Assembly: GCA_945871425.1 (NCBI GenBank)
Contig: CAMBVS010000011.1
Span: forward strand, 1 to 64,000
Origin: Rhizobium sp. Q54
GTDB lineage: Bacteria; Pseudomonadota; Alphaproteobacteria; SHVZ01
DNA length: 64,000 nucleotides
Reading direction: 5' to 3'
Shown here: piece by piece, positions 2,579 to 24,959 of the stretch
Position numbering within the stretch: the stretch's first letter is position 1
How the letters are laid out: each line of letters begins with the position of its first letter
Notes under the pieces: generated by a model
What the model was told of the DNA's origin: nothing
The model's database searches: none
Seen by the model: the letters and a program-made list of their open reading frames with translations, nothing else
Made by a program: the position numbers and the translations under genes

Positions 2579-2587
2579 AGGTGGAGC

Positions 2588-2631
2588 ATGGGACGCAAGC
2601 AGTATGGCCAGGAGTTCAAGGTAGAGGCGGT
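2588..2631 (+). pseudogene. 5' remnant of an IS3-type orfA, cut by the IS256 insertion
   Basis: An ATG preceded by a strong ribosome-binding site (GGAGGTGGAG) opens a frame starting MGRKQYGQEFKVEAV. This resembles the N-terminus of transposase_8/IS3 OrfA proteins. The frame stops being meaningful exactly where the IS256 left inverted repeat begins (2632). It is not the same element as the intact IS3 at 25153, whose OrfA starts differently. Only about 15 codons remain, so the family assignment is tentative. Confidence 0.45.
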
Positions 2632-4041: not shown

Positions 4042-4106
4042 TCCCGCTGGCGCAGACGCTATTTCCAAACTAGCATTCCAACTGGACCACTCGGCGGGGG
4101 CTGGCC
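4042..4106 (+). repeat. Right-end remnant of an IS3 element (same family as 25153-26425)
   Basis: The 65 bases after the IS256 right end resemble the last part of the intact IS3: both contain TCCCGCTGG, then CCAAACTA or CTAAACTA, CATTCCAAC, GGACCACTCG, and end in GGGGCTGGCCA here against GGGGCCGGTCA in the intact copy. The terminal repeat therefore ends at 4106, 40 bases before the peptide-transport locus. Together with the inverted remnant at 15915 it brackets that locus. Confidence 0.75.
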
Positions 4107-4146
4107 AGTCCCAGGCATCGCAGATGGTGCGATATGTGACGTACCC

Positions 4147-5733: not shown

Positions 5734-5771
5734 GTTCTTCTCCGGTCGCGGAAGACTCGAAACACAGCTTT

Positions 5772-8859: not shown

Positions 8860-8864
8860 GGCGG

Positions 8865-9776: not shown

Positions 9777-9785
9777 ACGCGGCCC

Positions 9786-10703
9786 TCACTTGTAGCCGAT
9801 GCGCGGGTCGAGTGCCGCGTAAAGGAGGTCGACGAGCAGATTGACGATCACGAAGATCATCGCGAAGAGGAAGACGACGGCCTGGACCACCGGAAAGTCG
9901 CGGGCATAGATCGCTTGAATCGCGAGGCGCCCCACGCCGGGCCAGGAGAACACCGTCTCGGTGACGATGACGCCGCCCATCAGCAGGCCGACCTGAAGGC
10001 CGATGATCGTCAGAACCGGGATGAAAGCGTTTCGCAGCGCATGCCTCCGGACGACGACGCTCTCGCCGAGTCCTTTGGCGCGGGCTGTGCGGATATAATC
10101 CTGGCCAAGCACGTCGAGCATGCAGGAACGAGTCACGCGGGTGATCAGGGCGACGATGTGGAGGCTGAGCGTTGCCGCCGGCAGCAGCAGCTGTGCCCAA
10201 GTACCTCGTCCGCCTGTCGGCAGCCAGCCGAGCATGACCGCGAAGACGACGATTGAGACGATCCCGAGGTAAAAGGAAGGTATCGCCTGGCCGACCAGCG
10301 TCATCGCGCGAACTACCACGTCCACTACCGTGTTGCGCCAATAGGCGGCGACGACGCCGGCCGGGATGCCGATCCCGATGGCGAGAACCATCGCGGCAAC
10401 CGCGAGTTCGGTCGTTGCCGCCATGCGCTCGGTTACGAGGCTGATGGCCGAAACACCGAATCGCAGGGACTCGCCGAAGTCGCCTTGGAGGGCGTGCCAG
10501 GAGAAGCTGCCGAACTGCACCCACAGCGGGCGGTCGAGCCCGTGTTGCTCACGGAACGATTTGCGCGCGGACTCGGTGGCATCCGGCGGCAGTATCAGGT
10601 CGGTCGGGTCGCCGCTGATATGCGTCAGGATGAAGGAGATGAGCAGTATGCCGAACAGAACTGGCAACGTCAGCAACAGGCGGTTGGCGATGTATTGAGG
10701 CAT
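9786..10703 (-). CDS. Oligo/dipeptide ABC transporter permease, DppB type
   Basis: A 305-residue permease with the DppB N-terminus (MPQYIANRLLLTLPVLFGI), the HISGDPTDL region, six predicted transmembrane segments and the EAA loop (DYIRTARAKGLGES). It pairs with the DppC-like protein to form the channel. A 103-base gap with an inverted repeat separates it from the upstream binding-protein gene. Such an arrangement often lets the binding protein be made in excess. Confidence 0.94.
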   Translation of the reverse strand: MPQYIANRLLLTLPVLFGILLISFILTHISGDPTDLILPPDATESARKSFREQHGLDRPLWVQFGSFSWHALQGDFGESLRFGVSAISLVTERMAATTELAVAAMVLAIGIGIPAGVVAAYWRNTVVDVVVRAMTLVGQAIPSFYLGIVSIVVFAVMLGWLPTGGRGTWAQLLLPAATLSLHIVALITRVTRSCMLDVLGQDYIRTARAKGLGESVVVRRHALRNAFIPVLTIIGLQVGLLMGGVIVTETVFSWPGVGRLAIQAIYARDFPVVQAVVFLFAMIFVIVNLLVDLLYAALDPRIGYK

Positions 10704-10743
10704 CCAAGACCTTTGGCGGTAGCGATGCTACCCTTACGTTCTC

Positions 10744-10769
10744 GCTCCGACCGGCGAACCGCTCGGAGC
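10744..10769 (-). terminator. Intercistronic hairpin between binding-protein and permease genes
   Basis: GCTCCGA (10744-10750) and TCGGAGC (10763-10769) form a perfect 7-bp stem with a 12-base loop. A second small stem (GGTAGC/GCTACC, 10718-10732) follows it. There is no run of T, so a full rho-independent stop is unlikely. It may cause partial termination or protect the binding-protein mRNA. Confidence 0.35.
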
Positions 10770-10806
10770 ATCGGCCTGAGGCGTCGGCGTCACTTCGCTC
10801 CGACGA

Positions 10807-12321
10807 TCATTTGTCGAGCGAGACATTGTAGAAAAAGTACCTGCCGTCTCCGCGCGGATGGAAGTTCTTCAGCTTGGCGTTGACGGCGTAGTGGTCGACG
10901 CCGCCATTGATGAAGCCCACCGGCGCTTGCTCGTAGATCAGGGCGCTGATCTTCCGGTAGATCGCGTCGCGCTTTTTCGGATCCATCTCCACCTTGCCCT
11001 CGTCGATCAGCTTGTCGAGCTCGGCGTCGTTGATGTACGAGTAACGCCAAGTGGAATGATACTGCGACATCATGAAGTGAGAGTCGTCCGGGGGCTGGTT
11101 TCCGCTGATCGCCATCGGGCCGAGTTCGCGAGCGCGCAGCTGACGAAGATACTCGCCGGCCTCGAGGAGCTGGATCTTGGCGGTGATACCAATCGCCCCG
11201 AGCATCCCCGCAACTGCTTCCGCGACTTCCTGACCCTGCTGGATGGAGCCGACCGGAACCTTGAAAGGAACCTGGAACCCGTTCGGATAGCCCGCCTCCG
11301 TCAGGAGTTGCTTGGCTTTCTTCGGATCGTATGGGTAGTCGACGATGTTCGGATCATAGCCGGGCTGAGTCGGGCGCAGCAACTGGCCGTTGAGACGGCG
11401 GGCATTACCGAGGAACAGACCGTCGATAATCCCCTGCTTGTCTATTGCGAAATTAATCGCGTGGCGGACCCGCTTGTCCTGAAGCGGGCTCTTGTGCTGT
11501 TCAAGCGACGAGAGGATGAGATGAACGACCGTGAAAGCATTCACCTCGAGTACTTTTAGGTTGACCCGCTTCCTGAGATCAGCCACCGACGAAATCGGAA
11601 CCTGCTTGGCGATGTCGACTTCCCCCGTGATCGCACCGGCAACGCGCGCGCCGAAATCCGGGACTGACTTGAAAACCAGTTCGTCTATATTCTCCGGCAG
11701 TTTTCCCCAATAGGCATCGTTCCTCTTCAAGACGACCTGAGCGTCACGGACCCAGCTGTGGAACGTGAACGGACCGGTGCCGATTGGCTTGCGGCCGAAC
11801 GCCACGGCACCGCCGACTTCGGTCCAGTACTTCGGCGGGACGACGAAAAACAGACTGAGCGTCAGGCCCATCGGCGGTAGCGGATAGCTGGTATCCACCT
11901 GTACGGTGAGGTTGTCGATCTTGGTGATCTTGGAGAAGCCTTCGAAGTACCGCGTGTAGGCCGGCGTCTGCTTTGGGTCCGTCACGACGTTGTAGCTGAA
12001 GATGACCGCATCGGCGTTCATCGGCTCGCCGTTGGTGAACTTGACGTTGGGCCGGAGCTTAATCGTGATTTGGTTCGGCGAGTCCTGCGTGTAACTTAGG
12101 GCGAGCAGCGGCTTGATCTGATTGTCGCTCGCATCGAGCCAGAACAGCGACTCGACGATCGGCGTCCCGGCATTATAGGTGTCGGCACTCGTCGTGGCGT
12201 TGGGCCACAGCGACTGCGGATCCAGGCTTTGTGCGATCGTCACTCGAGCGGCGGTAGCCGGGCCGGCAATACCCATCGCCACTAGCACCGTCAGTAACAG
12301 CTTGCACAGCGTCGGCTTCAT
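10807..12321 (-). CDS. ABC peptide-type solute-binding protein (SBP_bac_5), exported
   Basis: A 504-residue periplasmic binding protein of the DppA/OppA class. It starts with a clear Sec signal peptide (about 24 residues, ending PATA before ARV). It then has the family blocks IKLRPNVKFTNGEPMNADAV and, further on, AINFAIDKQGI. It is the first gene of the minus-strand operon and faces the divergent regulator at 12473. The ribosome-binding site AGGGAGAG lies just before the ATG. It should deliver peptides or amide-type compounds to the DppBC-like permease. Confidence 0.94.
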   Translation of the reverse strand: MKPTLCKLLLTVLVAMGIAGPATAARVTIAQSLDPQSLWPNATTSADTYNAGTPIVESLFWLDASDNQIKPLLALSYTQDSPNQITIKLRPNVKFTNGEPMNADAVIFSYNVVTDPKQTPAYTRYFEGFSKITKIDNLTVQVDTSYPLPPMGLTLSLFFVVPPKYWTEVGGAVAFGRKPIGTGPFTFHSWVRDAQVVLKRNDAYWGKLPENIDELVFKSVPDFGARVAGAITGEVDIAKQVPISSVADLRKRVNLKVLEVNAFTVVHLILSSLEQHKSPLQDKRVRHAINFAIDKQGIIDGLFLGNARRLNGQLLRPTQPGYDPNIVDYPYDPKKAKQLLTEAGYPNGFQVPFKVPVGSIQQGQEVAEAVAGMLGAIGITAKIQLLEAGEYLRQLRARELGPMAISGNQPPDDSHFMMSQYHSTWRYSYINDAELDKLIDEGKVEMDPKKRDAIYRKISALIYEQAPVGFINGGVDHYAVNAKLKNFHPRGDGRYFFYNVSLDK

Positions 12322-12465
12322 GGTGCTCTCCCTGATAGCGTTAGAGTGGGTTAGGTTTTTCTCGGACGCGATGCGCGTTTCCCGTGGCTAGCGTCGCCCA
12401 TGTCCTCGCGCACGATTCCGAGATCGTTGTCCCTAAGCACTAGCATTATCGGCGACCGGCGGAAT

Positions 12466-12493
12466 TTGCATTATGAAGTTCCACTATTATGAT
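12466..12493 (+). promoter_or_regulatory. Sigma-70-type promoter for the XRE-cupin regulator
   Basis: TTGCAT (12466-12471) and TATGAT (12488-12493) are separated by 16 bases in an AT-rich patch that contrasts with the surrounding sequence. If used, transcription starts around 12500, downstream of the ATG at 12473. The regulator would then have to start further in. Confidence 0.45.
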
Positions 12494-13141
12494 TATCTAG
12501 TCGAGAAAATTTACAGGGAACGCTGTGGTTGCCGCCGTCTCAGCCCAAGGAAGGAAAATCCGCTGAAAAGCACGTTCGATACCGACCTTCAGGTCGGCGA
12601 GCGCATACGACGTCTGCGAAAGGCTCGCAGCAGGTCGCTGAAGGAGGTGGCTCTGCGGTCCGGACTATCCAGCAGTTATCTCAGCCAGTTGGAACGCGGT
12701 CTCTCATCCGCTTCGATACGGGCCCTCGCGCGCCTCGCCGATGCCCTTGATATCGGCATCGCCGAACTCTTCTCGGCGAGCGACCCGCCGTATCCCGACA
12801 GCCCGACCAAGGTCGCGCGCCTCTCGGATCGAAAATTTCTCGAGTTCCCGACAACAGGCATGACCAAGGAGCTTCTGACTCCATTCGACAAATCGCCGCG
12901 CCTTGACATCTACATCCTGACCATTGCCGTCGGCGGCGGGACCGGCGAGTCGCCCTTCATGCATCAGGGTGAGGAGGCCCGCTATGTTCTGGAAGGAGGC
13001 GTCGAACTGACGGTCGACGGGCAGAAGGTTATCCTCGGCGCGGGCGACAGCTTCCGCTTCAGCAGCAACCTTCCCCATGGCTATCGTAATGCCGGAACTA
13101 AGCCTGCCAAGGCCGTGTGGATCAACTACCGCGACAAGTAG
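12473..13141 (+). CDS. XRE-cupin transcriptional regulator
   Basis: The longest reading is 222 residues. A helix-turn-helix of the XRE type occupies about residues 40-95 (VGERIRRLRKARSRSLKEVA, then SGLSSSYLSQLERG), and a cupin_2 effector domain fills residues 145-220 (MHQGEEARYVLEGGVELTVDG). Such regulators often sense small ligands and control adjacent transport or catabolic genes. It is divergent from the dpp-like operon and upstream of the amidase genes. The start is uncertain: the first 30 codons are AT-rich and overlap a promoter-like sequence. An alternative CTG start at 12563 has GGAAGGAAAA seven to ten bases upstream and would give 192 residues. Confidence 0.85.
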   Translation: MKFHYYDYLVEKIYRERCGCRRLSPRKENPLKSTFDTDLQVGERIRRLRKARSRSLKEVALRSGLSSSYLSQLERGLSSASIRALARLADALDIGIAELFSASDPPYPDSPTKVARLSDRKFLEFPTTGMTKELLTPFDKSPRLDIYILTIAVGGGTGESPFMHQGEEARYVLEGGVELTVDGQKVILGAGDSFRFSSNLPHGYRNAGTKPAKAVWINYRDK

Positions 13142-13188
13142 TGAGTGTCATGTGCCCGGGCCGGGATGGCCAAGGGACGGAGAGGCGT

Positions 13189-13416
13189 ATGAGTGCAAGC
13201 CAGGCCGACGACGAAGCGTTCGAAATGCTCATGCGGCGCCACGATATGGACGTCTTGCCAGAAGCCCGCGATGCGGCGCGGCATGTCTTCTCCGACCTGA
13301 CCAGGGCGGTCCGGTTGGTCCGCCAAGAGCGAGCGATGACAAACTCGACCGCTCACGTGTTCTCGCCTGGATGCCTGCTCCGACACCAGCTGAGGCCCGA
13401 TGAAGCCGATACATGA
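13189..13416 (+). CDS. Probable AtzG-like (DUF4089) small amidase subunit
   Basis: A 75-residue protein starting MSASQADDEAFEML, preceded by GGGACGGAGAGG. It is mostly helical and ends in a segment (RAVRLVRQERA, then AHVFSP) that follows the pattern of DUF4089/AtzG proteins, small partners of AtzE-type amidases. It overlaps the start of the downstream amidase by 17 bases, as expected for coupled subunits. This is recognition by pattern and context only. It could instead be an unrelated small protein. In AtzEG the small subunit forms a stable complex with the hydrolase. Confidence 0.55.
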   Translation: MSASQADDEAFEMLMRRHDMDVLPEARDAARHVFSDLTRAVRLVRQERAMTNSTAHVFSPGCLLRHQLRPDEADT

Positions 13417-14833
13417 ACTCACGATAGCCGAAGCAGGCAGTGCTCTGCGATCAGGCGCGGTGACATCAGTCGAGCTCACCGAAGCCGCGTTGGATCGAGT
13501 TGCGGCGCTCGACCCGGCGCTGCACTACTTCTACCTGTTGACGACCGAGCGCGCCCGTAGCGACGCCGCGCGCGCTGACAAGGAACTACGCGCTGGCCAC
13601 GATCGCGGACCTCTTCATGGCATACCATATGGTCTGAAGGACATCCTTGACACCGCCGGGATCCAGACAACCTGTAACTCCAAGCTGCTGCTTGGCCACC
13701 TCCCGGATGAGGACAGCGCCGTCGAAGCGAAGCTGCGCGCCGGTGGCGGCGTGCTCTTGGGAAAGCTCGCCACATCAGAATTCGCGTGTGGCGGACCAGG
13801 CGACGATCTGCCCTACCCGATTTCACGCAACCCCTGGCACCTCGACCACTATACCGGCGGATCCTCGGCCGGCAGCGCAGGCGGCGTCTCGGTCGGCTTC
13901 ATGCGCGCCGCGATCGGCACCGACACGGGAGGTTCGACGCGCGTGCCAGCGCACTATTGCGGCGTCGTCGGGCTGAAGCCGACCTATGGATTGATCTCCA
14001 CCCGCGGTGTTTTTCCGCTTGCGCCTTCGTTCGACCATTGTGCACCGCTCACTCGTAGCGTCCGCGACATGGCCCTGCTGATGAACGTGATTGCAGGATA
14101 TGATCCGCGCGACCCGGCTAGCGTCGATCACCAACGTGAGGACTACACACGCAAGCTGGGCCAAGGAGTCAGGGGCCTTCGAATTGCATATGCCAGGGAG
14201 TACTTAGTTACGGCATCGATATTCCCGGATCTACTGGCTAGCCTCGACAGAGCGGTCGAGATCTTTCGCAACCTCGGAGCCGTCGTCGAGGAAGTCGCCC
14301 TACCCGATTTCGAACTGTTCCGTGCCTGCAGCCGGGTTGTCGTTGCCGCCGAAGCCTTTGCTATCCATGAGGAGACGCTACGCTCCCGTCCGCGTGACTA
14401 TGGCATCCAGACCTATCAGCGACTTGTCGCCGGCACTGCTATCAGCGCCGCTGACCTTGTCCATGCATATGGGCTGAGGCGCGACCTGGTCCTGGCGATC
14501 CGAAACGTTCTCGGGCGCTACGACGCGGCGGTAACGGCCACCGGACTCGGCGAGCCGCCGCTTATCGCGACTCCTAGTCAGCCTTCGCGCATGATCGGTT
14601 CCCCGACTGTCATCTGCAGCCTTACCGGCAATCCCGCGGTATCGGTGCCCATCGGCCTGTCGAGCAAGGGACTTCCTTTCGGCATGCAGATTTTCGCACG
14701 CCATTTCGACGAGGCACGGCTTCTCCAGGTCGCCGCTGCTCTCGAGGAAGCCGTCGGGTTCACCGATTCAGCGGCCGGCATGCCGCCGATCGGTCGCAAT
14801 GTTGCCGCTACGCGAAAATACATCGATGCATGA
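13400..14833 (+). CDS. Amidase-signature hydrolase (GatA/AtzE-like)
   Basis: A 477-residue amidase-signature enzyme with the Ser-cisSer-Lys triad in place: Lys near 80 (GIPYGLKDILD), cis-Ser near 155 (TGGSSAGSAGG) and nucleophile Ser near 179 (GTDTGGSTRVPA). It hydrolyses an amide bond of an unknown substrate in the cytoplasm. The ATG at 13400 overlaps the small AtzG-like gene. With the divergent dpp-like importer and the second M19-like gene downstream, it looks like the intracellular hydrolase of an imported amide or peptide. It is unlikely to be the GatA tRNA amidotransferase subunit, since no gatB or gatC is present. Confidence 0.9.
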   Translation: MKPIHELTIAEAGSALRSGAVTSVELTEAALDRVAALDPALHYFYLLTTERARSDAARADKELRAGHDRGPLHGIPYGLKDILDTAGIQTTCNSKLLLGHLPDEDSAVEAKLRAGGGVLLGKLATSEFACGGPGDDLPYPISRNPWHLDHYTGGSSAGSAGGVSVGFMRAAIGTDTGGSTRVPAHYCGVVGLKPTYGLISTRGVFPLAPSFDHCAPLTRSVRDMALLMNVIAGYDPRDPASVDHQREDYTRKLGQGVRGLRIAYAREYLVTASIFPDLLASLDRAVEIFRNLGAVVEEVALPDFELFRACSRVVVAAEAFAIHEETLRSRPRDYGIQTYQRLVAGTAISAADLVHAYGLRRDLVLAIRNVLGRYDAAVTATGLGEPPLIATPSQPSRMIGSPTVICSLTGNPAVSVPIGLSSKGLPFGMQIFARHFDEARLLQVAAALEEAVGFTDSAAGMPPIGRNVAATRKYIDA

Positions 14834-14858
14834 TCGACCAGACCCTCAGGAGAGCGAA

Positions 14859-15908
14859 ATGGAAAGCAGGCTTACAGACGTCAAAAAACATCCGCTTGAG
14901 AAGGGCTGGCACAGCAAGGCGGTAAACCCCGACATCTTCATCGACGGCTGTACGCAGATTTGGCCCGACGCGGATTTCGCCAAGCTGAACGATTGTGGCG
15001 TAACCGCCTATTGTTTGACCGCCTTCCGCCCCCTTCATCCAGGCGAAGCGGCGATGGATGGTATGGCCGATTGGTGGCGTGTGGCCCGAACCTATCCGGA
15101 AGTGCGCATCGCCCTCAAGGCCGACGACATCGTCGAGGCAAAGAAGCAGAGGCAGGCTGCCCTGATCCTCTCGGCGCAGGGCGGTGACTTCCTTGGTCAG
15201 AACCTCAACCGGCTCGAGATCTTCCACAAGATGGGCTTGAGGGTAATGATCCCCTGCTACAACAGCCGCAACCCGCTTGGCGACGGCGTGATGGAGCCGG
15301 AGAACGGCGGGCTCAGCATGTTGGGCAAGCGCTGGGTCGCCGAGTGCAATCGCCTCGGCATCGTCATCGATCTCGCCCACACAGGCATAAAGTCGTCGAT
15401 GGACGCTATCGAGCTGTCCAAGCATCCGGTCCTCTTCTCGCACGCCAACCCGCGTGCACTCGTCGAGAACAGGCGCAATCTCACCGATGAGCAGATGCGC
15501 GCTTGCGCGAAAACTGGCGGCGTCGTCGGCGTAAGTAATTTTGGCCCGATGCTGTTCCGGCCGGACCAGACGACCAGACCGACGATCGAGCAGTTCCTCG
15601 AAGCTGTCGAGTATGCCGTAAATCTCATCGGTATCGACCATGTCGGCATCGGCACCGACATGAGCCACGGCACGTATCCCGACGGTGACCTCATTCGTAC
15701 CCGCAACGCCGGTGGCGCCCCCCGATACAGCGAGTTCGTCGAGATCAGCTCGCGCTCACGCCTACGGTATGTCCAAGGATTTGACGACTACGGACAGATC
15801 GTCAGCGTCGCCGACCTTTTGACGAAGCGCGGATTCTCCAAGGATGACGTCCGGAAGATCCTTGGCGAAAACTTCCTGCGCGTCTTCCGCCAAGTCTGGG
15901 GCGGTTGA
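14859..15908 (+). CDS. Membrane-dipeptidase-like protein (M19 fold), second non-canonical copy
   Basis: A 349-residue protein homologous in layout to the 7858-8859 product. His in DLAHTGI, His in FSHANPRALV and Asp in GIGTDMSHG are kept. The N-terminal HxD is replaced by IDGCTQIWPD and the bridging Glu by Gln (LILSAQGGD). The start MESRLTD at 14859 is preceded by AGGAGAG; an earlier in-frame ATG at 14799 would overlap the amidase gene. It is the last gene of the regulator-amidase transcript. Two divergent copies in one locus suggest successive or different substrates. Confidence 0.85.
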   Translation: MESRLTDVKKHPLEKGWHSKAVNPDIFIDGCTQIWPDADFAKLNDCGVTAYCLTAFRPLHPGEAAMDGMADWWRVARTYPEVRIALKADDIVEAKKQRQAALILSAQGGDFLGQNLNRLEIFHKMGLRVMIPCYNSRNPLGDGVMEPENGGLSMLGKRWVAECNRLGIVIDLAHTGIKSSMDAIELSKHPVLFSHANPRALVENRRNLTDEQMRACAKTGGVVGVSNFGPMLFRPDQTTRPTIEQFLEAVEYAVNLIGIDHVGIGTDMSHGTYPDGDLIRTRNAGGAPRYSEFVEISSRSRLRYVQGFDDYGQIVSVADLLTKRGFSKDDVRKILGENFLRVFRQVWGG

Positions 15909-15914
15909 ACCAGA

Positions 15915-15981
15915 TTAGACCTGCGCCAGTGGGAGCGCGCCCGGCGAAGCTGGCCCGGATTGCGAAGGCGGGCGCGCTCCC
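15915..15981 (-). repeat. Inverted IS3 3'-end remnant, forming a 13-bp-stem palindrome
   Basis: Read on the minus strand, 15978 to 15915 encodes ARPPSQSGPASPGALPLAQV and a stop. This closely matches the C-terminus of the intact IS3 OrfB (ARPPSQPGPATSGALPLVPK). The same bases form a perfect 13-bp stem (15931-15943 with 15969-15981), so the structure could also act as a terminator for the dipeptidase-like gene ending at 15908. It is in the opposite orientation to the remnant at 4042. Confidence 0.7.
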
Positions 15982-16008
15982 GCTAGCGCAGACGCTAGTT
16001 CCAAACTA
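15969..16008 (+). repeat. IS3 right-end fragment, forward orientation, interrupted by IS630
   Basis: From CGGGCGCGCTCCCGCT to CCAAACTA the sequence matches the 4042 remnant (TCCCGCTGGCGCAGACGCTA and CCAAACTA) and the end of the intact IS3. It stops at a TA dinucleotide (16007-16008), where the IS630 element begins, which fits the TA target of that family. Confidence 0.65.
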
Positions 16009-17110
16009 GTGTCCTGATTCAGAAGTTTTGATGATTTTCGCTTGGTTGTCGGCGATTTTTTAGAGTGGCGAGGCAGAAGCGCTTTATCGACGCGAGGATG
16101 TCGTCAGCGGACCTGGTCCATTTGAACGGCTTGGGGTCGTCGTTGACGATCTTTATCTAGTCTTGGATCGCTCGTTTGAGCTGGCGGGTCGAGCGGTGGA
16201 CGCCGCGGCGGATTTGCTTTTCGGTGAGGTTGGCAAAGAACCGCTCGACCTGGTTGATCCATGACGCCGAGGTCGGGGTGAAGTGGACATGCCAGAGAGG
16301 ATGCCTAGCCAGCCATCGGCGGATTGCCGGAGTTTTGTGGGTGGCGTAATTGTCAATCACGAGGTGGACGTCGAGATCGGTCGGGACGTTGTTTTCGATT
16401 TCGCGCAAGAACTTGAGAAACTCGCGTCCACGATGGCGCGCGAAGCATCTTCCGATCACCTTTCCCGTCGCCGCATCGAGGGCGGCGAACAAGGACAGAG
16501 TTCCGTGGCGGGTATAGTCATGGCTACGCCGCTCGACCTGTCCGGGCCGCATCGGCAGCAGAGGCTGGGTGCGGTCGAGCGCCTGGATCTGGCTCTTCTC
16601 GTCGACGCAGAGCACCAAGGCCCGCTCAGGGGGCGCCATGTAGAGCCCGACGATGTCCCTCACCTTCTCGACGAAGAGCGGATCCTTCGAAAGCTTGAAT
16701 GTCTCCACCCGGTGCGGCTGCAGCCCGAACGCCTGCCAGATCCGGTGGATCGTCGAGGGCGCATGACCCGCCGCCGCAGCCATCGATCGTAGCGACCAGT
16801 GGGTCGCACCTCGCGGCGTCGTCTCCAGCGTTAGCCGGATCGTCTCGGCGATCTCGTCATCGCCGATCTGCTGCGGCGCGCCGGGGCGCGGTTCATCCAA
16901 AAGCCCGTCGACCCGGCGCTCGGCGAACCGCCGGCGCTACTTGCCGACCGTGTTCACGTCGGCGCCGATCCTCCGGGCGATCATCTGGTTTTCCTCGCCG
17001 TCGGCCGCAGCCAGCACAATCCGAGCCCGCCGCGCCAGTCCCTGTGCTGTCCGACGACGCCCGGCCAGACCCTCAAGTTCCGTCCGCTCCGAAGCCGTCA
17101 ACATGATTGG
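16009..17110 (-). mobile_element. IS630-family insertion sequence, degenerate
   Basis: The left end begins after a TA at 16007-16008 with GTGTCCTGATTCAGAAG. The element contains a single minus-strand transposase gene carrying two amber codons. I could not find a matching inverted repeat beyond the transposase start (17104), so the right boundary is approximate and that end may be lost or diverged. Confidence 0.75.
16019..17104 (-). pseudogene. IS630 transposase with two internal amber codons
   Basis: Reading from ATG at 17104 to TGA at 16019 gives 361 codons, the usual IS630 length. The frame is interrupted by TAG at 16937-16939 (VGK-stop-RRRF, where Trp would fit) and TAG at 16157-16159 (AIQD-stop-IKIVND, where Trp would fit). 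The helix-turn-helix start (MLTASERTELEGLAGRRRTA) lies before the first stop. The DDE residues are in the central part: [18 protein letters not shown] and [10 protein letters not shown]. Both lesions fit TGG to TAG changes. The central 247-residue frame alone would lack the DNA-binding N-terminus. Confidence 0.88.
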
Positions 17111-17288
17111 CCTGTCGGAAAGTGACGAAGCCGCTACTCACTCAGTCGGCGACCCGAGCGTCGGAAAGCGTTCCGCGGGCTTCGGCCGATGTGGGAACCC
17201 CGTGCCCCACCGGGCCGCCATCATAGAGTGCTGCCATGCTATTGCGAGCTGGGCACAGCTGGCGGTAGGAGTCGCCAGCGCGTTGCCT

Positions 17289-17525
17289 CTATGGTCGCTG
17301 AACACGCCTAAGCATCTTGGCCGCGTCGAAACCGATCGCCTTTGCGAGGTCGAGAAACTCGACCACGTCGAGGCGGCGCTCGCCGCCCTCATACTTCGCG
17401 ATGAAGGATTGGGGTTTGCCAAGTCGCTTGGCGACGTCGGCTTGGGTGAGCTCCGCCGTCAGGCGCGCCTCTATCAAAAGGGTCCGCAAGCGTTCTTGAC
17501 GGGGCGATCGAAGGGACTTCGCCAT
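17289..17525 (-). CDS. Small XRE-family DNA-binding protein
   Basis: A 78-residue single-domain protein starting MAKSLRSPRQERLRTLL. Its helix-turn-helix spans about residues 25-65 (LTQADVAKRLGKPQSFIAKY then EGGERRLDVVEFLDLAKAIG). The start at 17525 was chosen because the domain begins there; the frame is open for 67 more codons upstream, but those do not resemble a protein. It is divergent from the unknown gene at 17678, with a perfect palindrome between them, so it probably represses itself and that neighbour. Confidence 0.8.
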   Translation of the reverse strand: MAKSLRSPRQERLRTLLIEARLTAELTQADVAKRLGKPQSFIAKYEGGERRLDVVEFLDLAKAIGFDAAKMLRRVQRP

Positions 17526-17595
17526 GGACGAGGCGCCGCGCTCTTGTGTCGGCACCTCTGTTAGTGGTGCTTTTATTTTATCCCAAAAAAGGATA

Positions 17596-17611
17596 TTGGC
17601 AACGCTGCCAA
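17596..17611. promoter_or_regulatory. Candidate operator for the small XRE protein
   Basis: TTGGCA (17596-17601) and TGCCAA (17606-17611) are a perfect inverted repeat with a 4-base spacer. They lie between the divergent starts at 17525 and 17678, in a locally AT-richer stretch. The geometry suits an XRE dimer. Confidence 0.45.
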
Positions 17612-17677
17612 AGTGCGAATGCACTGGGCGGACGCTTGAAACAGGATTCAAAGTTAGCGGCGGAGGCGCGTCAAGCC

Positions 17678-18418
17678 ATGACCGTTGAAGTTTCGAACGA
17701 TCCCAATGGGGCGTTGTCGCATTCACCGAAGGACCGAGTGCCTCTCGCCGAGGTGATGTCGGCTTTGGACGTGGTCCGGGTCGCCGACGATGCTCGGATA
17801 GCCGATGTGATCGCGCAACGGCAGGGACTAATCAATCTCCCAACCGCAATCCCTGGCATCGTCTCCACGAATCCGAAATTGATCATGGCGGCATTCGCCG
17901 CTGCCTTCTGTGCCGGCGAGAGGTTGACGCATCTTGGCCCAGTCGACCTCGGTGGCGACACGATCATCTTCGGTGTGACCCGATCAGCGCTCAAGGCTGC
18001 GGAGACGCATTCCCTTGGCGAACCGAACGAAGATTTGTCGGGCCACTTCAGCAGAGCCCGGTTGGCTCGAGATCTCGTGGTGGATTGGGCGGTGTCCGGC
18101 CCACCTGCGCAATCCGCCCGCGTTCGCCAGCAAAGGATCATTGGATGGCTTCGGCCGATCAAGGAGCGGATCGGCCCGACAGTCGCCGTCGAATTGGTTG
18201 ACCGGATCTGGGCATACGAGGGTGGACGATGGACGCGCGAGAAAGGGGCAACCTACGTAGACCATGAATGCCATGCTGTTATCGTTCTTTCGATGGAGTT
18301 CATCGACGACCTCGAATACGTCCTCTATCGCGAGATGCACGTCGCCCATCGCGCCGATGGCCGCATCACGGATGATGAATGGGCCGCCCTCAAGGCGTGG
18401 GCAGGTGTCGGTCCGTAG
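17678..18418 (+). CDS. Hypothetical protein, divergent from XRE regulator
   Basis: A protein of 246 residues that I do not recognise. The start at 17678 (MTVEVSNDPNG) has GGAGG about twelve bases upstream; a longer frame from 17546 is open but would cover the intergenic palindrome. No signal peptide or membrane segment is evident. The C-terminal part (AHRADGRITDDEWAALKAWA) is acidic and helical. A small XRE gene divergent from a larger gene is seen in mobile elements and some toxin-antitoxin or phage modules, but nothing here proves that role. Confidence 0.65.
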   Translation: MTVEVSNDPNGALSHSPKDRVPLAEVMSALDVVRVADDARIADVIAQRQGLINLPTAIPGIVSTNPKLIMAAFAAAFCAGERLTHLGPVDLGGDTIIFGVTRSALKAAETHSLGEPNEDLSGHFSRARLARDLVVDWAVSGPPAQSARVRQQRIIGWLRPIKERIGPTVAVELVDRIWAYEGGRWTREKGATYVDHECHAVIVLSMEFIDDLEYVLYREMHVAHRADGRITDDEWAALKAWAGVGP

Positions 18419-18757
18419 CCATGAGCCCCGGAGACGGCGCGGACTGCATCGGTGGCTTCGGTCGTCGTGCGAGCCGGTGACAGTCATCATTTCAGGCTTC
18501 GTCGGGTCATGGGCGATCGCCTTGGTAGCGACTAGAGAAGATCACCGGGACCGCCACCTACTGCTGGGATGCGCGCCTGTCGTCGCGTTACGAACAAGAT
18601 CGGAGAGGTGTCTATGCAGGCCACAGACAGATATATACGCGGCGGCGCATATTTTCTTTGTATTCGCCGATCAGTATATTGACTGAATATGCTGTTAGGC
18701 GTATAAAACTGCTGTATACTCTATCACGTATGAACCCGGCCCACCCGGAGCCTCTCC
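18419..18757. other. Intergenic region holding the hipBA control sequences
   Basis: No convincing gene is seen between the unknown ORF and hipB. The right half is AT-rich and contains the promoter and inverted repeats listed separately. An ATG at 18730 opens the hipA frame across hipB, but this is only an open shadow frame. Confidence 0.6.
18676..18719 (+). promoter_or_regulatory. hipBA promoter with two candidate HipB operators
   Basis: TTGACT (18679-18684), a 17-base spacer and TATAAA (18702-18707) form a near-consensus sigma-70 promoter. One inverted repeat ATATT-5-AATAT (18676-18690) covers the -35 box. Another, GTATA-9-TATAC (18701-18719), covers the -10 box. Operators overlapping both boxes fit autorepression by HipB. 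Confidence 0.55.
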
Positions 18758-19009
18758 ATGGACCAGATCGTCCGCACGCCCCACCAGATGGGGTCGGCTC
18801 TCCGCCGTATCCGCCGCCAACGGGGCCTGAGCCAGGGCGAGCTCGCCGCCCGCGCGCATCTCCGGCAGGCGACGATCTCCGAGTTCGAGGCCGGAAAAGG
18901 CTCGACCCGCCTCGACACCATCATCGCCATCATGGTCGCCCTCGACCTCGAGATGGTCGTCCGGCCGCGGACCACCAGCGCGCCCGAAGACATTGGGAAG
19001 GCCTACTGA
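18758..19009 (+). CDS. hipB: HipB-type antitoxin, XRE DNA-binding
   Basis: An 83-residue protein with an XRE helix-turn-helix (GSALRRIRRQRGLSQGELAA, then LRQATISEFEAGKGSTRLDT) and the short C-terminal strand typical of HipB. It binds its own promoter and inactivates HipA. Its TGA overlaps the hipA ATG by one base (19009), ensuring coupled translation. Confidence 0.92.
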   Translation: MDQIVRTPHQMGSALRRIRRQRGLSQGELAARAHLRQATISEFEAGKGSTRLDTIIAIMVALDLEMVVRPRTTSAPEDIGKAY

Positions 19010-20331
19010 TGCCCCGTCGGCCCCGTCACGCTCCGCTCAAGGTCTGCCTCAACGGCCGCCTGGTCGGTCACCTCCGTCGCCAGGCGAGCGGTGCCATCGA
19101 CTTCCGCTACGATCCGGACTGGCTCGCCTGGGAGCATGCGCTCCCGGTCTCCTTCTCGCTCCCGCTCCGCGAAGACCGCTACATCGGCGCGCCGGTGATC
19201 GCGGTCTTCGACAACCTGCTTCCCGACAACGACAGGATCCGCCAGCGCATGGCTGAGCGGATGCACGCGGATGGCACCGACGCCTACAGCCTGCTCTTGG
19301 CCGCCGGCCGGGACTGCGTGGGTGCGTTGCAGTTCCTGCCAGCCGATCTCGATCCGGGACCGACAGGCGCAATCGACGGCACACCCGTCAGCGAGGAGGA
19401 GATCGGGACTCTTCTCGACAATCTCGCCGGAACTCCGCTCGGTCTCAGCGAGAGCGACGACTTCCGGATCTCGATCGCCGGCGCGCAGGAGAAGACGGCC
19501 TTGCTGCGCGTCGACGGTCGCTGGCTGAAGCCGCGCGGGACGACGGCGACGACGCATATCCTGAAGCCGCCGATCGGCCCGACCAAGGGACATCCCGATC
19601 TCTCGGACAGCGTCGAGAACGAATGGCTCAGCCTCGCGCTCGTCAGGGCCATGGGGCTGCCGGCGGCGGAGGCGGAGATGGCTGATTTCGCCGGCCGAAA
19701 GGCGCTCGTTGTCGAGCGATTCGACCGCCTATGGACCGACGAGACCCCCAGTCGGCTACTGAGATTGCCGCAGGAGGATTGCTGCCAGGCGCTCGGCGTT
19801 CCGCCGACGGCGAAGTACGAATCCGAGGGCGGGCCAGGTATCGGGCGGATCCTCGAGCTACTTAGAGCCAGCGACCGTCCGGCCGAAGACTGCAAAGTCT
19901 TCCTCAAGACCCAGATCGTCTTCTGGCTCATGGCCGCGCCCGATGGGCATGCCAAGAACTTCAGCCTGCTGCTCTCGGCCGGCGGCCGCTTCCACCTGGC
20001 GCCGCTCTACGACGTGATGTCGGCCGAGTCCTATGCGAGATCGAGGCAGCTCGATGGACGAAAGCTCAAGCTCTCCATGGCCGTCGGCGACAACAGGCAC
20101 TACGAAATCGAGGAGATCGCGCCGAGACACTTCATCCAGACCGGCGTCAGGTACGGGCTCGCCAAGACGCAAGTGGAGGAGATCCTGGACGAAGTCGGAA
20201 AGGCAGCACTTAAGGCGATTGATACGGTGATGGCCGCCTTGCCGGCGTCGGTGCCGGCGAGCACGGCCGAGCCGATCATCGAGGGCATGCGGAAGCGGCT
20301 GACGCTGATCGAAGGGCGTTCCAAAGTCTAA
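19009..20331 (+). CDS. hipA: HipA-type serine/threonine kinase toxin
   Basis: 440 residues, close to the length of E. coli HipA. The couple_hipA domain is at the N-terminus (VCLNGRLVGHL). The regulatory Ser near 155 in the Gly-rich loop (ISIAGAQEK), catalytic Asp near 312 (PDGHAKNFS) and metal-binding Asp near 335 (APLYDVMSAESY) are all present, so the kinase should be active. In studied systems HipA phosphorylates GltX (glutamyl-tRNA synthetase) and induces growth arrest; whether this copy targets GltX is not known. It lies inside the island, 450 bases from the integrases, and may help maintain the element. Confidence 0.93.
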   Translation: MPRRPRHAPLKVCLNGRLVGHLRRQASGAIDFRYDPDWLAWEHALPVSFSLPLREDRYIGAPVIAVFDNLLPDNDRIRQRMAERMHADGTDAYSLLLAAGRDCVGALQFLPADLDPGPTGAIDGTPVSEEEIGTLLDNLAGTPLGLSESDDFRISIAGAQEKTALLRVDGRWLKPRGTTATTHILKPPIGPTKGHPDLSDSVENEWLSLALVRAMGLPAAEAEMADFAGRKALVVERFDRLWTDETPSRLLRLPQEDCCQALGVPPTAKYESEGGPGIGRILELLRASDRPAEDCKVFLKTQIVFWLMAAPDGHAKNFSLLLSAGGRFHLAPLYDVMSAESYARSRQLDGRKLKLSMAVGDNRHYEIEEIAPRHFIQTGVRYGLAKTQVEEILDEVGKAALKAIDTVMAALPASVPASTAEPIIEGMRKRLTLIEGRSKV

Positions 20332-20779
20332 TCCACCCGAACCCTGTCAATCCGCGGCCGGATCTTGTTCCACGGCCGCAAATGCGTTAGTCGAAAGACG
20401 GCAGCCTGAGACCCGGAAAGCGAGCCGGTGGGGTTCTCCGCGGCGATGTCGCGAGGATCAATAGATGCGGGTGATACGCGGCCCGCCAGGCCGCCGCGCT
20501 CTCGCCCCGTTGAGTACTCTAATCTCGGTTGTCAAGCCCTCACTCGTTCTTCGCGGGCCTTGACGTCGAGTTGGGTCGAGGCGAGCCCATCAGAGCCAAG
20601 AAGAGAGAGGCGGGCGGCCCGCAGGGCGAGTTATGAGAAAAAATCTGCCTCAGGATGCCGACCCTGCACCAAAAGTGAGCCAGAGCCCCAGTTCGATGCC
20701 GAATTACACCGATTGGCGACAATCTTAGTCGTCGATTGATGACATTCGGTAAAGTCGCCGAACGGCGACATATCCCGGG
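20332..20779. other. Intergenic region between hipA and the integrase genes
   Basis: About 450 bases with no convincing gene on either strand. Apart from the hairpin after hipA I see nothing I can name. The part near 20660-20740 is less GC-rich and might be old mobile-element debris, but I cannot match it to anything in the window. Confidence 0.5.
20354..20379 (+). terminator. Possible terminator downstream of hipA
   Basis: GCGGCCG (20354-20360) and CGGCCGC (20373-20379) form a perfect 7-bp GC stem with a 12-base loop, 23 bases after the hipA stop. There is no T-tract, so termination strength is uncertain. Confidence 0.35.
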
Positions 20780-22012
20780 CTATTCTTTGGAATTCCAGCA
20801 GAATACGGCCCATTCCTGCATCATTTCGATCCGTTTGCCGAAGAGATCGCCTCGCCTGTAGGCACGCTCGACCCCGCTAGGTATGACGTGCGCAAGGGCC
20901 ATTTCGGCCACTTCCGGCGGGTAGCTCGTCCGCTCCGCGGCCCAGTCCCGGAAGGTCGACCGGAAGCCATGCGGCGTCAGGTCCGGTCGTTCCATCCGGT
21001 GAAGCAGGGCCCGAAACGCGTTCTCGCTGAGAGGTCGGCCGCGACGGCCGCCCGGGAAGAGGTAATCGTCGGATAACGGTGCGGCCTCGTCGACGAGCTG
21101 GAGCGCACGATCCGACAACGGCACGCGATGCTCACGGCCCGCCTTGATGCGTTCCGGCGGGATCGTCCACACCGAGGTCTGGCGATTGATCTCGCTGTCC
21201 GTCGCGCCTGTGACTTCGCTCGTACGCGCCGCCGTCAGGATGAGGAACTCGAGGGCTCGCGCGACAATCCCATCCTGCGCGCGGAGTTCGACCATGAAGG
21301 CGCCGACTTCGTCGATAGGCAGCGCCGGATGATGCCGGACTTTGGCAACCCGGCTCCGCGCCGGCAGAAGCTTGTCGAGTGTACCTTTCCATCTTGCGGG
21401 ATTTGGTCCCTCCCGGAGGCCGCGCACCTGCGCCCAGTCGAGAACTGCCTCGATACGGCCGCGAACCCGCATCGCCGTTTCGGTCTTGGCATACCAGATC
21501 GGTCGCAGCGCCTTGTCCACGAGGTTCACATCGATCACGTGGACGGGGAGGGCGCCCAGTACCGGATATGCATAGGCCTCGAGCGTCGAACTCCATTGTT
21601 CATGATGCTTCTCGCTTCGCCATCCGGGATGATGGGCTTCGACATAGGCAGCGGCACAGTCGCGAAAAGCCATCGCCCTCGCTGCTTCCGAGACGCGTTG
21701 CGCTCGCGCGCTACGGCGTGCCTCGATCGGATCGACGCCGTCGAGCAGCTGCCCGCGGGCAGTTCGCGCCTTGTCGCGCGCTTCGGCCAGGCTCACCGTA
21801 TGAAGCGGGCCTAGACCCATGTCGCGGGGCGTCTTCCGCCCGTTCAGCCGGTATCGGAAGATCCAAGATCGGCCGCCTGCATTCGAAACCTGAAGATACA
21901 GACCATCGCCGTCGGCGTAGAGGCCTGGCTCCGTCAGCCGGCCCACCGCGAGGGCGCTGAGACGGCCAATGGTTCGCCGTTCTCTACGCTTGAAGCTCAG
22001 AACGGTGGTCAT
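20780..22012 (-). CDS. Tyrosine recombinase/integrase (P4 type, DUF4102 arm-binding domain)
   Basis: 410 residues. The N-terminal DUF4102 domain (about 15-100, LTEPGLYADGDGLYLQVSNA) is typical of island and P4-phage integrases. The catalytic domain has Arg in TAARTSEVTG, H348 and R351 in HGFRSTFR, H375 in ALAHVIPSG and the nucleophile Tyr near 385 in AYRRGD. It overlaps the stop of the upstream integrase by four bases. It should catalyse integration into and excision from the tRNA-Glu site at 23472-23515. Confidence 0.93.
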   Translation of the reverse strand: MTTVLSFKRRERRTIGRLSALAVGRLTEPGLYADGDGLYLQVSNAGGRSWIFRYRLNGRKTPRDMGLGPLHTVSLAEARDKARTARGQLLDGVDPIEARRSARAQRVSEAARAMAFRDCAAAYVEAHHPGWRSEKHHEQWSSTLEAYAYPVLGALPVHVIDVNLVDKALRPIWYAKTETAMRVRGRIEAVLDWAQVRGLREGPNPARWKGTLDKLLPARSRVAKVRHHPALPIDEVGAFMVELRAQDGIVARALEFLILTAARTSEVTGATDSEINRQTSVWTIPPERIKAGREHRVPLSDRALQLVDEAAPLSDDYLFPGGRRGRPLSENAFRALLHRMERPDLTPHGFRSTFRDWAAERTSYPPEVAEMALAHVIPSGVERAYRRGDLFGKRIEMMQEWAVFCWNSKE

Positions 22013-23325
22013 TTTCCCGGACCTGAGTTTTCTGGGCAGCCCGCCTTCAGATCGAGAACGGGTGCGTCGTTCGCGAGCGAGAAGCCGAGCCTAGGCAGGT
22101 TGCTCCGGATTTCCTCGTCGACATAGCTCTGCGCCAGATGGGCGTAGTGCTTTTCGGTGATCCGCGTATCTGAGTGTCCGAGCTGGCTGGCGATGACGCC
22201 GAGAGACACGCGACGCATGGCCAGCCACGACGCATGTGTGTGCCGAAGCAGATGAAAATGCGCCGGCGGTTCGATGCTGGCGCGTGCGGAGGCCTCGCGC
22301 ATGAGCCGTTGCTGATGGTTCTTACCCCAGGCGCTGCCGTCGGGCCGGCAGAAGGCCAATGACTCTCTCGGGCGGCCCAATGTCACCGCATCGAACACGC
22401 CGAGGCCCTCGTCGCTGAGGCGGACATGGCGCGCCTTACCGCCTTTGCCGTTTCGGACGAAGACCTTCTTGGCCGCGAGGCTGTAGTCGCCGCAGCGGAT
22501 ACCGGCGAGCTCCTGATACCGGCATCCGGTCATGATCGCGGCGTAGATAAGCCGCTGGAAGGCAGCGTCTGTCACGTGCAGGAGCCGCAGCACCTCTTCC
22601 TCGCTTAGAAAGCGGACGATCGCGACATCGACCCGCGGGAACGGCCGGACTTTGCGCCAAGCGATATCGGAGGCGACCTGGTTCTCGCGGAAGGCATGGT
22701 TCAGGAGCGCCTTGAGCACGGTGAGCTTGTGGTTCGCCGTGACCTTGCGTCGTCGCAGCGCCTCTGCCGGATCGAAATGGGGCTTGCGGGCCTTCGGCTT
22801 CTCGCCTTGCTTCGCGCGGAGCGGGACCGGCGCAAAGGCGAGGTTCTGATGCCAGTCTCGGATGCGGCGGGTGGTGAGCTTCGCCACCTCGATAGTGCCG
22901 AGCGCCGGCACGATGTCGCGATCGATGATGCGGCGGAACTCGTCGATCGCCCGGCCGCGTGCCCGGAAGTCGGCGAAGTAGTCTTCGGCCGCGTCCTGGA
23001 CGGTGAGAAGCCGCCTCGGGCCTTGCCCGGCATCGGCGAGGGCGAGCTGCGCAAGCCAGCTCCGGGCCCGTTCCTGCGCCTGATCGAAAGAGAGCGTGCG
23101 GACGCCATCGGCGTCGGCGATGTCGTCGGCGACGCCGAGCGGCTCGAACCGGCGGCCGACCGCGCTGTCATAGGCGCGCGCGATCCATGTACCGCCCTTC
23201 GCTCCCTTGCGATAGCCGACGACCAAGCCCTTCTGGATTCCTTTCCAGTAGGGATCCCGTCGCGCCTTGAGCTTGAGGCGCGACGTCCTGGTTTCGAGAC
23301 GCGTGTCACGGACGGTCCGAGCCAA
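22009..23325 (-). CDS. Second tyrosine recombinase/phage-type integrase
   Basis: 438 residues. It has a SAM-like core-binding domain (about 105-210), Arg in MTGCRYQELAGI, HLLRHTHASWL (His/Arg) and the nucleophile Tyr in ITEKHYAHL. The start at 23325 is a TTG preceded by GGAGCGGAGC; no better ATG precedes it. The next integrase follows with a four-base overlap, so the two are made together. It differs clearly from its partner in domain layout (no DUF4102), so this is not a recent duplication. It lies 146 bases from the tRNA-Glu fragment. Confidence 0.92.
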   Translation of the reverse strand: MARTVRDTRLETRTSRLKLKARRDPYWKGIQKGLVVGYRKGAKGGTWIARAYDSAVGRRFEPLGVADDIADADGVRTLSFDQAQERARSWLAQLALADAGQGPRRLLTVQDAAEDYFADFRARGRAIDEFRRIIDRDIVPALGTIEVAKLTTRRIRDWHQNLAFAPVPLRAKQGEKPKARKPHFDPAEALRRRKVTANHKLTVLKALLNHAFRENQVASDIAWRKVRPFPRVDVAIVRFLSEEEVLRLLHVTDAAFQRLIYAAIMTGCRYQELAGIRCGDYSLAAKKVFVRNGKGGKARHVRLSDEGLGVFDAVTLGRPRESLAFCRPDGSAWGKNHQQRLMREASARASIEPPAHFHLLRHTHASWLAMRRVSLGVIASQLGHSDTRITEKHYAHLAQSYVDEEIRSNLPRLGFSLANDAPVLDLKAGCPENSGPGK

Positions 23326-23471
23326 GCTCCGCTCCGAAAACGTACGTCAAAAAGCTGACGGGTCTGTTGCAAAAACCTGAGTCTGAGCTTGGAGCGCGGC
23401 TCTCAAAAAGTCAATAAAATCGCATAAACTTCAACGAACTATGGCGAACTTCGGCGGACGCGTGCTAACAT

Positions 23472-23515
23472 CTTTCACGTTGGTAACACGGGTTCGAATC
23501 CCGTTGGGGACGCCA
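23472..23515 (+). other. tRNA-Glu 3' fragment: attachment site at the island edge
   Basis: The 44 bases comprise an anticodon loop CTTTCAC (anticodon TTC, Glu), the 3' anticodon stem, variable loop, a complete T arm around GGTTCGAATCC, the 3' acceptor strand TGGGGAC, discriminator G and encoded CCA. The 5' half is absent: no complementary GTCCCCA acceptor strand is found upstream, and the bases before the loop do not pair with GTTGG. A 3' tRNA fragment next to integrase genes is the classic mark of an att site duplicated by site-specific integration. The chromosome continues to the right. Confidence 0.85.
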
Positions 23516-23543: not shown

Positions 23544-24959
23544 ATGTCGTACCCGATGAGCCGGTCGCCGCAGCCCCCCGTTCCTGATCGCGCGGCGCCG
23601 GCCGAAACCTTTATCCGGGCAATCTGGAGCGGGCTCGGCGGGGACGACTCCGCCCTGGCTGCGGTTCGGATGGCGGGGGTCGGCAACTTGCCCTCGGCCT
23701 TCGCCGTCAGCGATCTTGCCGTCGCCTCCGTTGCTGCCGCCGGCCTGGCCGTCGCGGAGCTGGGATCCGCTCGCTTCGGCGAGATGACCGAGGTCCGGGC
23801 CGACCGTCGGCTCGCCTCGCTCTGGTTTTCGCGGACGCTGCAGCCGCAGGGTTGGTCGATGCCCCCCGTCTGGGACCCGATCGCCGGCGACTACGCGGCG
23901 GCCGACGGGTGGATCAGGCTCCATACCAATGCGCCGCATCATCGGGACGCGGCGCTCGCGGTCCTGGGCGCGGCCAACGACAAGGCCGCCGTCGCGGCGG
24001 CCGTCTCGCGATGGACTGCGGACGATCTCGAGGCCGCGGTGGTCGAACGCGGAGGATGCGCCGCGGCGATGCGCTCGCTCTCAGCCTGGGCCGATCACCC
24101 GCAGGGGCGGAGCGTGGCCGCCGAGCCTCTGCTGCGGGTCGAGACCACCGACGTCTCCCGCAGTCAGCCACGGTCGATGTCGCGCGGACGGCCGCTCGCC
24201 GGCGTGCGCGTCCTCGACCTGACCCGGGTGCTGGCCGGCCCGGTGGCGACACGCTTCCTCGCCGGCCTCGGCGCCGATGTGCTGCGGATCGATCCGCCCT
24301 GGTGGGACGAGCCGTCGATCGTTCCGGATGTGGTGCCGGGCAAACGCTGCGCCCGGCTCGACCTGCGCCTGGCGGAGGATCGCCAGCGACTGACCGCGCT
24401 CATCGCCGAGGCCGACATCCTCGTCCATGGCTACCGGCCGGGCGCACTCGCGCGCCTGGGGCTGGACGCAGAGGCACGGCGTCGCCTGCGTCCGGGGCTC
24501 GTGGATGTTTCGCTCGATGCCTATGGCTGGACCGGACCCTGGCAGGGGCGGCGGGGCTTCGACAGCCTGGTCCAGATGAGCGCCGGCATCGCCGCCGAAG
24601 GCATGCGCCGCTTCGGCACCGACAGGCCGAAGCCGCTGCCGGTGCAGGCGCTGGACCATGCCACTGGCTACATGATGGCGGCCGCCGCGATCCGCGGGCT
24701 GATGCGCCGGATGACGTCGGGCGTCGGGTCCGAGACCCGGACATCGCTCGCACGCACCGCCGGCCTTCTCGCTTCGGTTGCGGCGCCGGACCAACCTGGC
24801 GAACTGGGCGAGGCGGATCCCGCGGACTACGGCAATGCGATCGAGGCGACGGACTGGGGGCCGGCGCTTCGCCTGCGCCCACCACTCGCGATCGACGGCG
24901 TCACCATTGCCTGGGATCGCCCGGCGGCGACGCTCGGATCGTCGCTGCCGCGCTGGTAG
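23544..24959 (+). CDS. CaiB/BaiF class III CoA-transferase family protein
   Basis: 471 residues. The recognisable CoA-transferase III core starts near residue 215 (LAGVRVLDLTRVLAGPVATR) and contains GLGADVLRIDPP, RLDLRLAEDRQRL and GLVDVSLDAYGWTGPW. The first 200 residues resemble the second lobe of the same fold (LHTNAPHHRDAALAVLGAAN), giving a permuted or two-lobed layout seen in some family members. It transfers or activates CoA esters of an unknown acid. It is the first backbone gene, starting 28 bases after the tRNA fragment with no clear ribosome-binding site, so island insertion may have changed its upstream control. Confidence 0.85.
   Translation: MSYPMSRSPQPPVPDRAAPAETFIRAIWSGLGGDDSALAAVRMAGVGNLPSAFAVSDLAVASVAAAGLAVAELGSARFGEMTEVRADRRLASLWFSRTLQPQGWSMPPVWDPIAGDYAAADGWIRLHTNAPHHRDAALAVLGAANDKAAVAAAVSRWTADDLEAAVVERGGCAAAMRSLSAWADHPQGRSVAAEPLLRVETTDVSRSQPRSMSRGRPLAGVRVLDLTRVLAGPVATRFLAGLGADVLRIDPPWWDEPSIVPDVVPGKRCARLDLRLAEDRQRLTALIAEADILVHGYRPGALARLGLDAEARRRLRPGLVDVSLDAYGWTGPWQGRRGFDSLVQMSAGIAAEGMRRFGTDRPKPLPVQALDHATGYMMAAAAIRGLMRRMTSGVGSETRTSLARTAGLLASVAAPDQPGELGEADPADYGNAIEATDWGPALRLRPPLAIDGVTIAWDRPAATLGSSLPRW

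Follow-up and report, generated by a model that had tools for sequence, protein, structure and literature searches.

An unlike tyrosine recombinase gene overlapping a tRNA-Glu-associated integrase gene in a genomic island of Rhizobium sp. Q54

The locus and the end of the island

Two genes for tyrosine recombinases, intB and intA, follow each other on the reverse strand next to the 3' half of a tRNA-Glu gene in Rhizobium sp. Q54 (assembly GCA_945871425.1). The whole stretch of DNA analysed here, referred to as the window, is bases 1-64000 of the 77,827-base contig CAMBVS010000011.1, which begins at window position 1. The features are listed in Table 1. A previous sequence-only reading described the two genes as integrases that overlap by four bases, differ in layout, and keep the catalytic Arg, His, and Tyr, without a third recombinase of the RIT type. 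All of these points were confirmed. The stop codon of intB and the start codon of intA share the bases ATGA (22009-22012), and both frames are open and of full length. IntA has the Pfam domains Arm-DNA-bind_3 (PF13356, which we take to be the former DUF4102), Phage_int_M, and Phage_integrase, while IntB has Phage_integrase and a match to Phage_int_SAM_3 slightly below the cut-off (21.1 vs. 22.6 bits). Profiles of the two families match only intA and intB within the window.

Table 1. Positions of the genes and other features in the window
Feature	Position	Strand	Remarks
Visible part of the island	1..23471		Left end beyond the contig start
intA	20780..22012	-	Tyrosine recombinase of 410 aa; Arm-DNA-bind_3 at the N-terminus; relatives often next to tRNA-Ser
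Joint	21980..22041	-	End of the intB tail and extra intA codons
Overlap of intB stop and intA start	22009..22012	-	ATGA
intB	22009..23325	-	Tyrosine recombinase of 438 aa with a TTG start; integrase family associated with tRNA-Glu
Putative attP arm region of IntB	23326..23471		146 nt, between the intB start and the tRNA half
attR	23472..23515	+	Displaced 3' half of tRNA-Glu(UUC), anticodon loop to CCA
Chromosomal right flank	23544..24959	+	CoA-transferase family III gene

In a single BLASTP comparison, no real similarity was found between IntA and IntB (best E 0.049). The catalytic residues, assigned by conserved motifs and alignments with relatives, form complete sets in both proteins (R269, K294, H358, R361, H384, and Y394 in IntB; R263, K290, H348, R351, H375, and Y385 in IntA). 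IntB differs from the near-invariant residues of its family at 3 of 63 positions (rank 23 of 50), and IntA at 3 of 91 (88 kept; rank 22 of 43). Judged by these residues, IntA shows no sign of decay and appears as conserved as its typical relatives; either its capture was recent or it is in use. Elsewhere in this genome (G000), a second, weak IntA-type match lies at the very edge of a further contig (C4:29-547; 29% identity, E 4.2e-8). Genes of the HipB-HipA toxin-antitoxin type (18658-20331) are located downstream of intA on the opposite strand.

The bases at 23472-23515 recur unchanged in the intact tRNA-Glu of a same-genus genome (G004), where they form positions 33-76. The 44-base tRNA-Glu pattern, with up to three mismatches allowed, occurs only here in the window and was absent from 100 shuffles. 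The right-flank gene starts 29 bases past the tRNA half, and its homologue in G004 (80% identical) is located 2.5 kb downstream of the intact tRNA-Glu on the same contig. From the identical 44 bases and the flank homologue, we conclude that 23472-23515 is attR, the displaced end of an island that extends leftward. Thus the integrase genes do adjoin tRNA-Glu, as had been read from the sequence, but what they adjoin is only the 3' half of the gene; according to ARAGORN, the window is free of intact tRNAs. The 82.8%-complete assembly yielded no further good copy of the half.

Of the 366 positions in the Pfam model, the CoA-transferase gene to the right of attR spans only 1-217, and the open frame of the G004 homologue is longer (636 vs. 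490 codons). Between 23544 and 26834, this gene is followed by an IS3-like element (named from its reading frames) and then by part of a DUF1028 frame; genes in this region were probably interrupted by an insertion.

Between about 4 and 23 kb, the GC content is mostly 0.59-0.65, apart from 0.67 at 19-20 kb; in the rest of the window it is mostly 0.66-0.70. With 100 contigs, the assembly is fragmented; it is 82.8% complete with 4.5% contamination. The left edge of the contig (1-4044) is made up of transposase genes, namely an IS66-type set (11-2382) and a Mutator-family transposase in two frames (2785-3983). The left end of the island is unassembled, probably due to these transposase genes.

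Relatives of the two integrases

The relatives of IntB were drawn from named genomes, viral contigs, one plasmid, and whole genomes. The scan of the named genomes used a single protein query, which finds close relatives only; from one profile scan of the viral contigs, the best 80 matches were taken. Searches of whole genomes, with the genome of the window counted, gave 17 IntB-family places in 14 of 385 genomes of the class (E <=1e-40) and the family in 8 of 398 genomes at the level of the phylum (E <=1e-60). No place in the phage records covers 80% of IntB. Five places in the plasmid records do, of which only H1 (40%) is above the identity limit, and plasmid record H6 holds a partial match. 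Two sets were used: one of 50 members (at least 370 aligned residues and at least 34.5% identity, near-identical copies merged) and one of 38 members (at least 380 aligned residues and at least 35.5% identity). In the former, L012 and L076 were merged with L135, the record of which is without upstream DNA. L144, a gene split by a frameshift, was left out of the counts. Genes below the limits were likewise uncounted, for example L030, L033, L035-L042, L045, L082-L086, L088, L089, L149, and L150.

Among 45 non-redundant IntB relatives with at least 190 nt of upstream sequence, 33 have the 3' half of tRNA-Glu just upstream, facing away from the integrase gene, and 12 are without it. The distance between the tRNA half and the gene is 134-216 nt in 29 relatives, compared with 146 nt in the window. 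IntB of the window resembles its family over the full length and has the tRNA-Glu 3' half within this range and facing away. IntB alone therefore explains the tRNA-Glu site, and the layout is that of a one-integrase island. The arms near 23326-23471 had been proposed as a place to look for two sets of repeats. Repeat searches there gave no two clear sets, and no second attachment site was found; the length matches that in the one-integrase relatives. The tRNA sublocations of integrases were reportedly treated by Williams.

Some relatives depart from this arrangement. In L012 (1254-2790), an intact tRNA-Glu lies upstream and faces the integrase gene, opposite to the other 33, as if the attachment core could sit in either orientation. 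L033 (7605-8975) and L035 (3357-4721) hold IntB-like genes with a different N-terminal part, and the tRNA-Glu half does not adjoin these genes (6.3 kb and 3.6 kb away, respectively).

The IntA family was found in 57 of the 385 genomes of the class (E <=1e-60, the genome of the window counted), and 69 places besides the window were compared. A search of the viral collection with IntA gave no relative. At least 250 nt of upstream sequence was present at 67 loci, which are 66 distinct ones, as L107 and L165 show one gene. An intact tRNA-Ser pointing to the integrase gene is located 127-220 bp upstream in 25 of the 67; one locus has tRNA-Tyr, one has tRNA-Phe, and the other 40 are without an intact upstream tRNA. 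IntA of the window has the three Pfam domains of the family and is similar to its relatives over the full length. No upstream tRNA-Ser of its own was found in positions 1-27000; this feature, being present in 25 of the 67 relatives, does not strictly define the family. The counterpart of the relatives' tRNA-Ser place lies inside intB, near its end.

We searched window positions 1-27000 with the 3' 50 bases of 11 tRNA-Ser genes from relatives, and no match was above those in 30 shuffles, which were made in two-base blocks and preserve dinucleotides only roughly. At 25.3 bits, the highest-scoring match falls on the T-loop region of the tRNA-Glu half itself, and six of the 30 shuffles reached this score. 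Another T-loop-like match, at 26959-26969, is not within a tRNA, as judged by eye. As 40 of the 67 loci are without an intact upstream tRNA, IntA may use another kind of site.

Overlap, joint, and recurrence of the pair

In 15 of 48 IntB relatives, the end of the integrase gene overlaps a downstream frame that is 80 codons or longer. In the background, consisting of the open frames of 250 aa or more in these loci (both strands, with shadow frames and integrase genes included), the corresponding number is 52 of 270. The former proportion is only moderately above the latter; thus, we did not accept downstream overlap as a strong habit of the IntB family, and such overlaps are ordinary at these loci. 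Among 20 downstream frames that start between -20 and +60 bases of the integrase stop, one pair is clearly related and one weakly. Nineteen products of frames at or near the integrase stop gave matches to four Pfam families, each with one protein, including sigma-70 region 4, antitermination protein Q, and HTH_17. In ten IntB relatives, an unlike frame starts inside the integrase stop codon (ATGA or GTGA; L043, L044, L080, L081, L127, L129, L133, L136, L137, and L139). Few of the products belong to known families, and this position may be that of a changing coupled partner gene.

At the joint in the window, the tail of intB after P411 is 27 aa long (median 17 in 50 relatives), and intA starts about 11 codons ahead of the start point of its relatives. 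The long tail and the early start fit, with modest support, a putative joining of two genes. Two of the 50 relatives have longer tails, and we did not take the joint as proof of fusion; the tail is weak evidence for it, as its length is within the range of the relatives. The former upstream sequence of IntA is gone.

To what extent the pair recurs was examined from both sides, with surveys that detect the recombinases recognised by the IntA and IntB profiles. In none of the 48 IntB relatives for which over 300 nt of downstream sequence is available (the full 2.6 kb in 34 of them) does a second recombinase lie within 2.6 kb or up to the end of the record. The sole profile match downstream, in L029, is the frameshifted end of the same gene. 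At the 69 other IntA places, two of which have less than 250 nt upstream, no IntB-type or other profile-recognised recombinase was found upstream on the same strand. Four of the 69 loci contain two or more recombinase-like frames, none of them like the window: a single divergent pair of IntA-type genes accounts for both L107 and L165, and L161 and L183 each hold one fragmented gene.

Two candidates for a conserved pair were rejected. In Xanthobacter NM-59 (L040), an IntA relative and an IntB remnant lie 2.3-2.5 kb apart, in the reverse order and with IntB broken, and no tRNA piece was found beside the IntA relative. In the genome G282, two IntB-like genes are back to back and divergent, 114 bp apart; they are about 30% identical to IntB, below the family limit. 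No overlapping or tandem integrase pair of this kind was found among the matches listed in a search of open-licence PubMed Central papers.

The same pair was thus found nowhere else in the sets examined, and the juxtaposition of IntB and IntA looks like a one-off capture. The sequence-only reading had suggested that a coupled, unlike pair may reflect division of labour or two attachment specificities. The attachment habits of the families do differ (tRNA-Glu vs. often tRNA-Ser), but a conserved functional pair is not borne out. The opposite outcome considered there, a unique juxtaposition created by a nested insertion, agrees with our surveys as far as uniqueness is concerned; a nested insertion would be a possible cause of it.

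Origin of the pair and other contents of the island

We propose the following course of events. The end seen in the window is the right end of the island, which IntB would have inserted into tRNA-Glu(UUC) by a crossover at or beside the anticodon loop, and IntB would act unaided as its integrase. intA, which is from a different lineage often found beside tRNA-Ser, would have come to sit immediately behind intB. Its translation is now presumably coupled to that of intB on the intB message. Overall, it is probable that IntB runs the island and that IntA is a captured, presumably co-translated passenger or spare integrase and not half of an evolved pair. Against this reading, the 88 of 91 near-invariant residues kept by IntA also fit selection for its product. 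The 12 of 45 IntB relatives without an upstream tRNA-Glu half and the 40 of 67 IntA loci without an intact upstream tRNA likewise speak against it.

That conservation, typical of the IntA relatives, would also be expected of a dual-target element, in which IntB acts at tRNA-Glu and IntA at tRNA-Ser or another site, the coupling matching the amounts of the two enzymes. In its fuller form, a coupled slot behind intB, holding changing partners in some relatives, would have taken up a second integrase. The different tRNA habits of the two families and the complete catalytic sets of both enzymes agree with such an element, and multi-integrase elements exist, such as ICE3 with IntS, IntG, and IntM (PMC5882170, consulted in excerpt). 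We nevertheless regard it as unlikely, for no tRNA-Ser 3' end rises above the shuffles in positions 1-27000, the place of the tRNA-Ser of 25 relatives falls within intB, and the pair does not recur in the surveyed sets. Because the assembly lacks the left end of the island, an attachment site of IntA could lie there and the element could still have two targets. If so, the site by which the island enters could differ from the one by which it leaves or re-enters.

Division of labour, or a mixed complex, would mean that IntA aids IntB at tRNA-Glu, for example as an excision factor, in place of the gene that is sometimes coupled behind intB. This appears very unlikely. A different frame does overlap the integrase end in 15 of 48 relatives, and a few of the 19 downstream products match DNA-binding or regulatory families; however, each of the four Pfam families occurs in only one of these proteins, the overlaps are moderately above the background (52 of 270), and the relatives occupy the same site without IntA. 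We give equally little credence to an assembly chimera, in which the joint between intB and intA would be an assembly error. Both frames cross the joint unbroken with an exact ATGA overlap and the right flank agrees with the same genus, against which stand the fragmented, partly contaminated genome and the finding of no independent copy of the joint.

Adjacent and overlapping recombinase genes are also known from multi-recombinase transposons, and we compared the window with these as they are described in parts of the cited papers. RIT elements have three distinct adjacent recombinases, RitA, RitB, and RitC, with overlaps of four to eight base pairs (PMC3414803); the recombinases of the window are likewise adjacent and briefly overlapping, but there are two genes, not three. 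SEs carry the operon intA-tfp-intB-srap, for which translational coupling was suggested (PMC10214605), and GInts carry the operon ginABCD (PMC5385486). Both resemble the window in having catalytic recombinases in one operon; they differ in having four genes, including one for a recombinase-fold protein without the catalytic residues and one for a small fourth protein. Judged on gene layout, intB and intA of the window overlap without a gene between them, and each encodes a full catalytic set. The filtered gene list shows no further gene next to intA on this strand. Tandems related to Tn554 also show two unlike tyrosine recombinases in succession, one of which is abnormally long (611-828 aa; PMC3414803); those of the window have 410 and 438 aa and are at a tRNA gene. 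With two genes instead of three or four, a tRNA attachment site, and ordinary lengths, it is hardly conceivable that the window holds a RIT, GInt, SE, or Tn554-like element.

The window also resembles the genomic islands inserted into tRNA genes by a tyrosine integrase, as described in a portion of the Islander paper (PMC4383910). As in those islands, a displaced tRNA fragment is located at the end with an adjoining integrase gene, the gene is intact in same-genus genomes, and the displaced 3' fragment is identical to the intact tRNA of the relatives (G004). Unlike them, a second integrase gene overlaps the first, and the other end is unassembled. ICE3 of Mesorhizobium is tripartite, with three integrases, three excisionases, and three recombination reactions, according to part of its description (PMC5882170). 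It is similar in having several integrases per element; in the window, one attachment site is visible and no excisionase was identified.

Our analysis clearly outlines an integrase family adjoining tRNA-Glu in bacteria and in contigs of the viral collection. It also suggests a route to a second target, namely the uptake of a foreign integrase directly behind the element's own with both intact. If IntA works, the pair would be a natural test of widening the target of an element by capture; if IntA is idle, the pair is a warning that overlapping integrase genes need not form a functional pair.

The visible part of the island has further contents. A 33-base direct repeat (94%; 4041-4073 and 15977-16009) flanks a block at 4041-16009 that encodes two family 5 solute-binding proteins together with what read as an amidase and a dipeptidase; the block resembles a composite mobile unit. 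At 15923-16008, pieces match the 3' end of the IS3-like element at about 25.2-26.4 kb (25217-26391). The island also has an XRE-type regulator (17289-17726), which is 57-59% identical to regulators in two Xanthobacter records (L031, 9357-9578; L040, 10904-11125). In Xanthobacter YC-JY1 (L031), the matching regulator lies directly behind the IntB gene, and in Xanthobacter NM-59 (L040), it lies about 2.7 kb from the IntB remnant.
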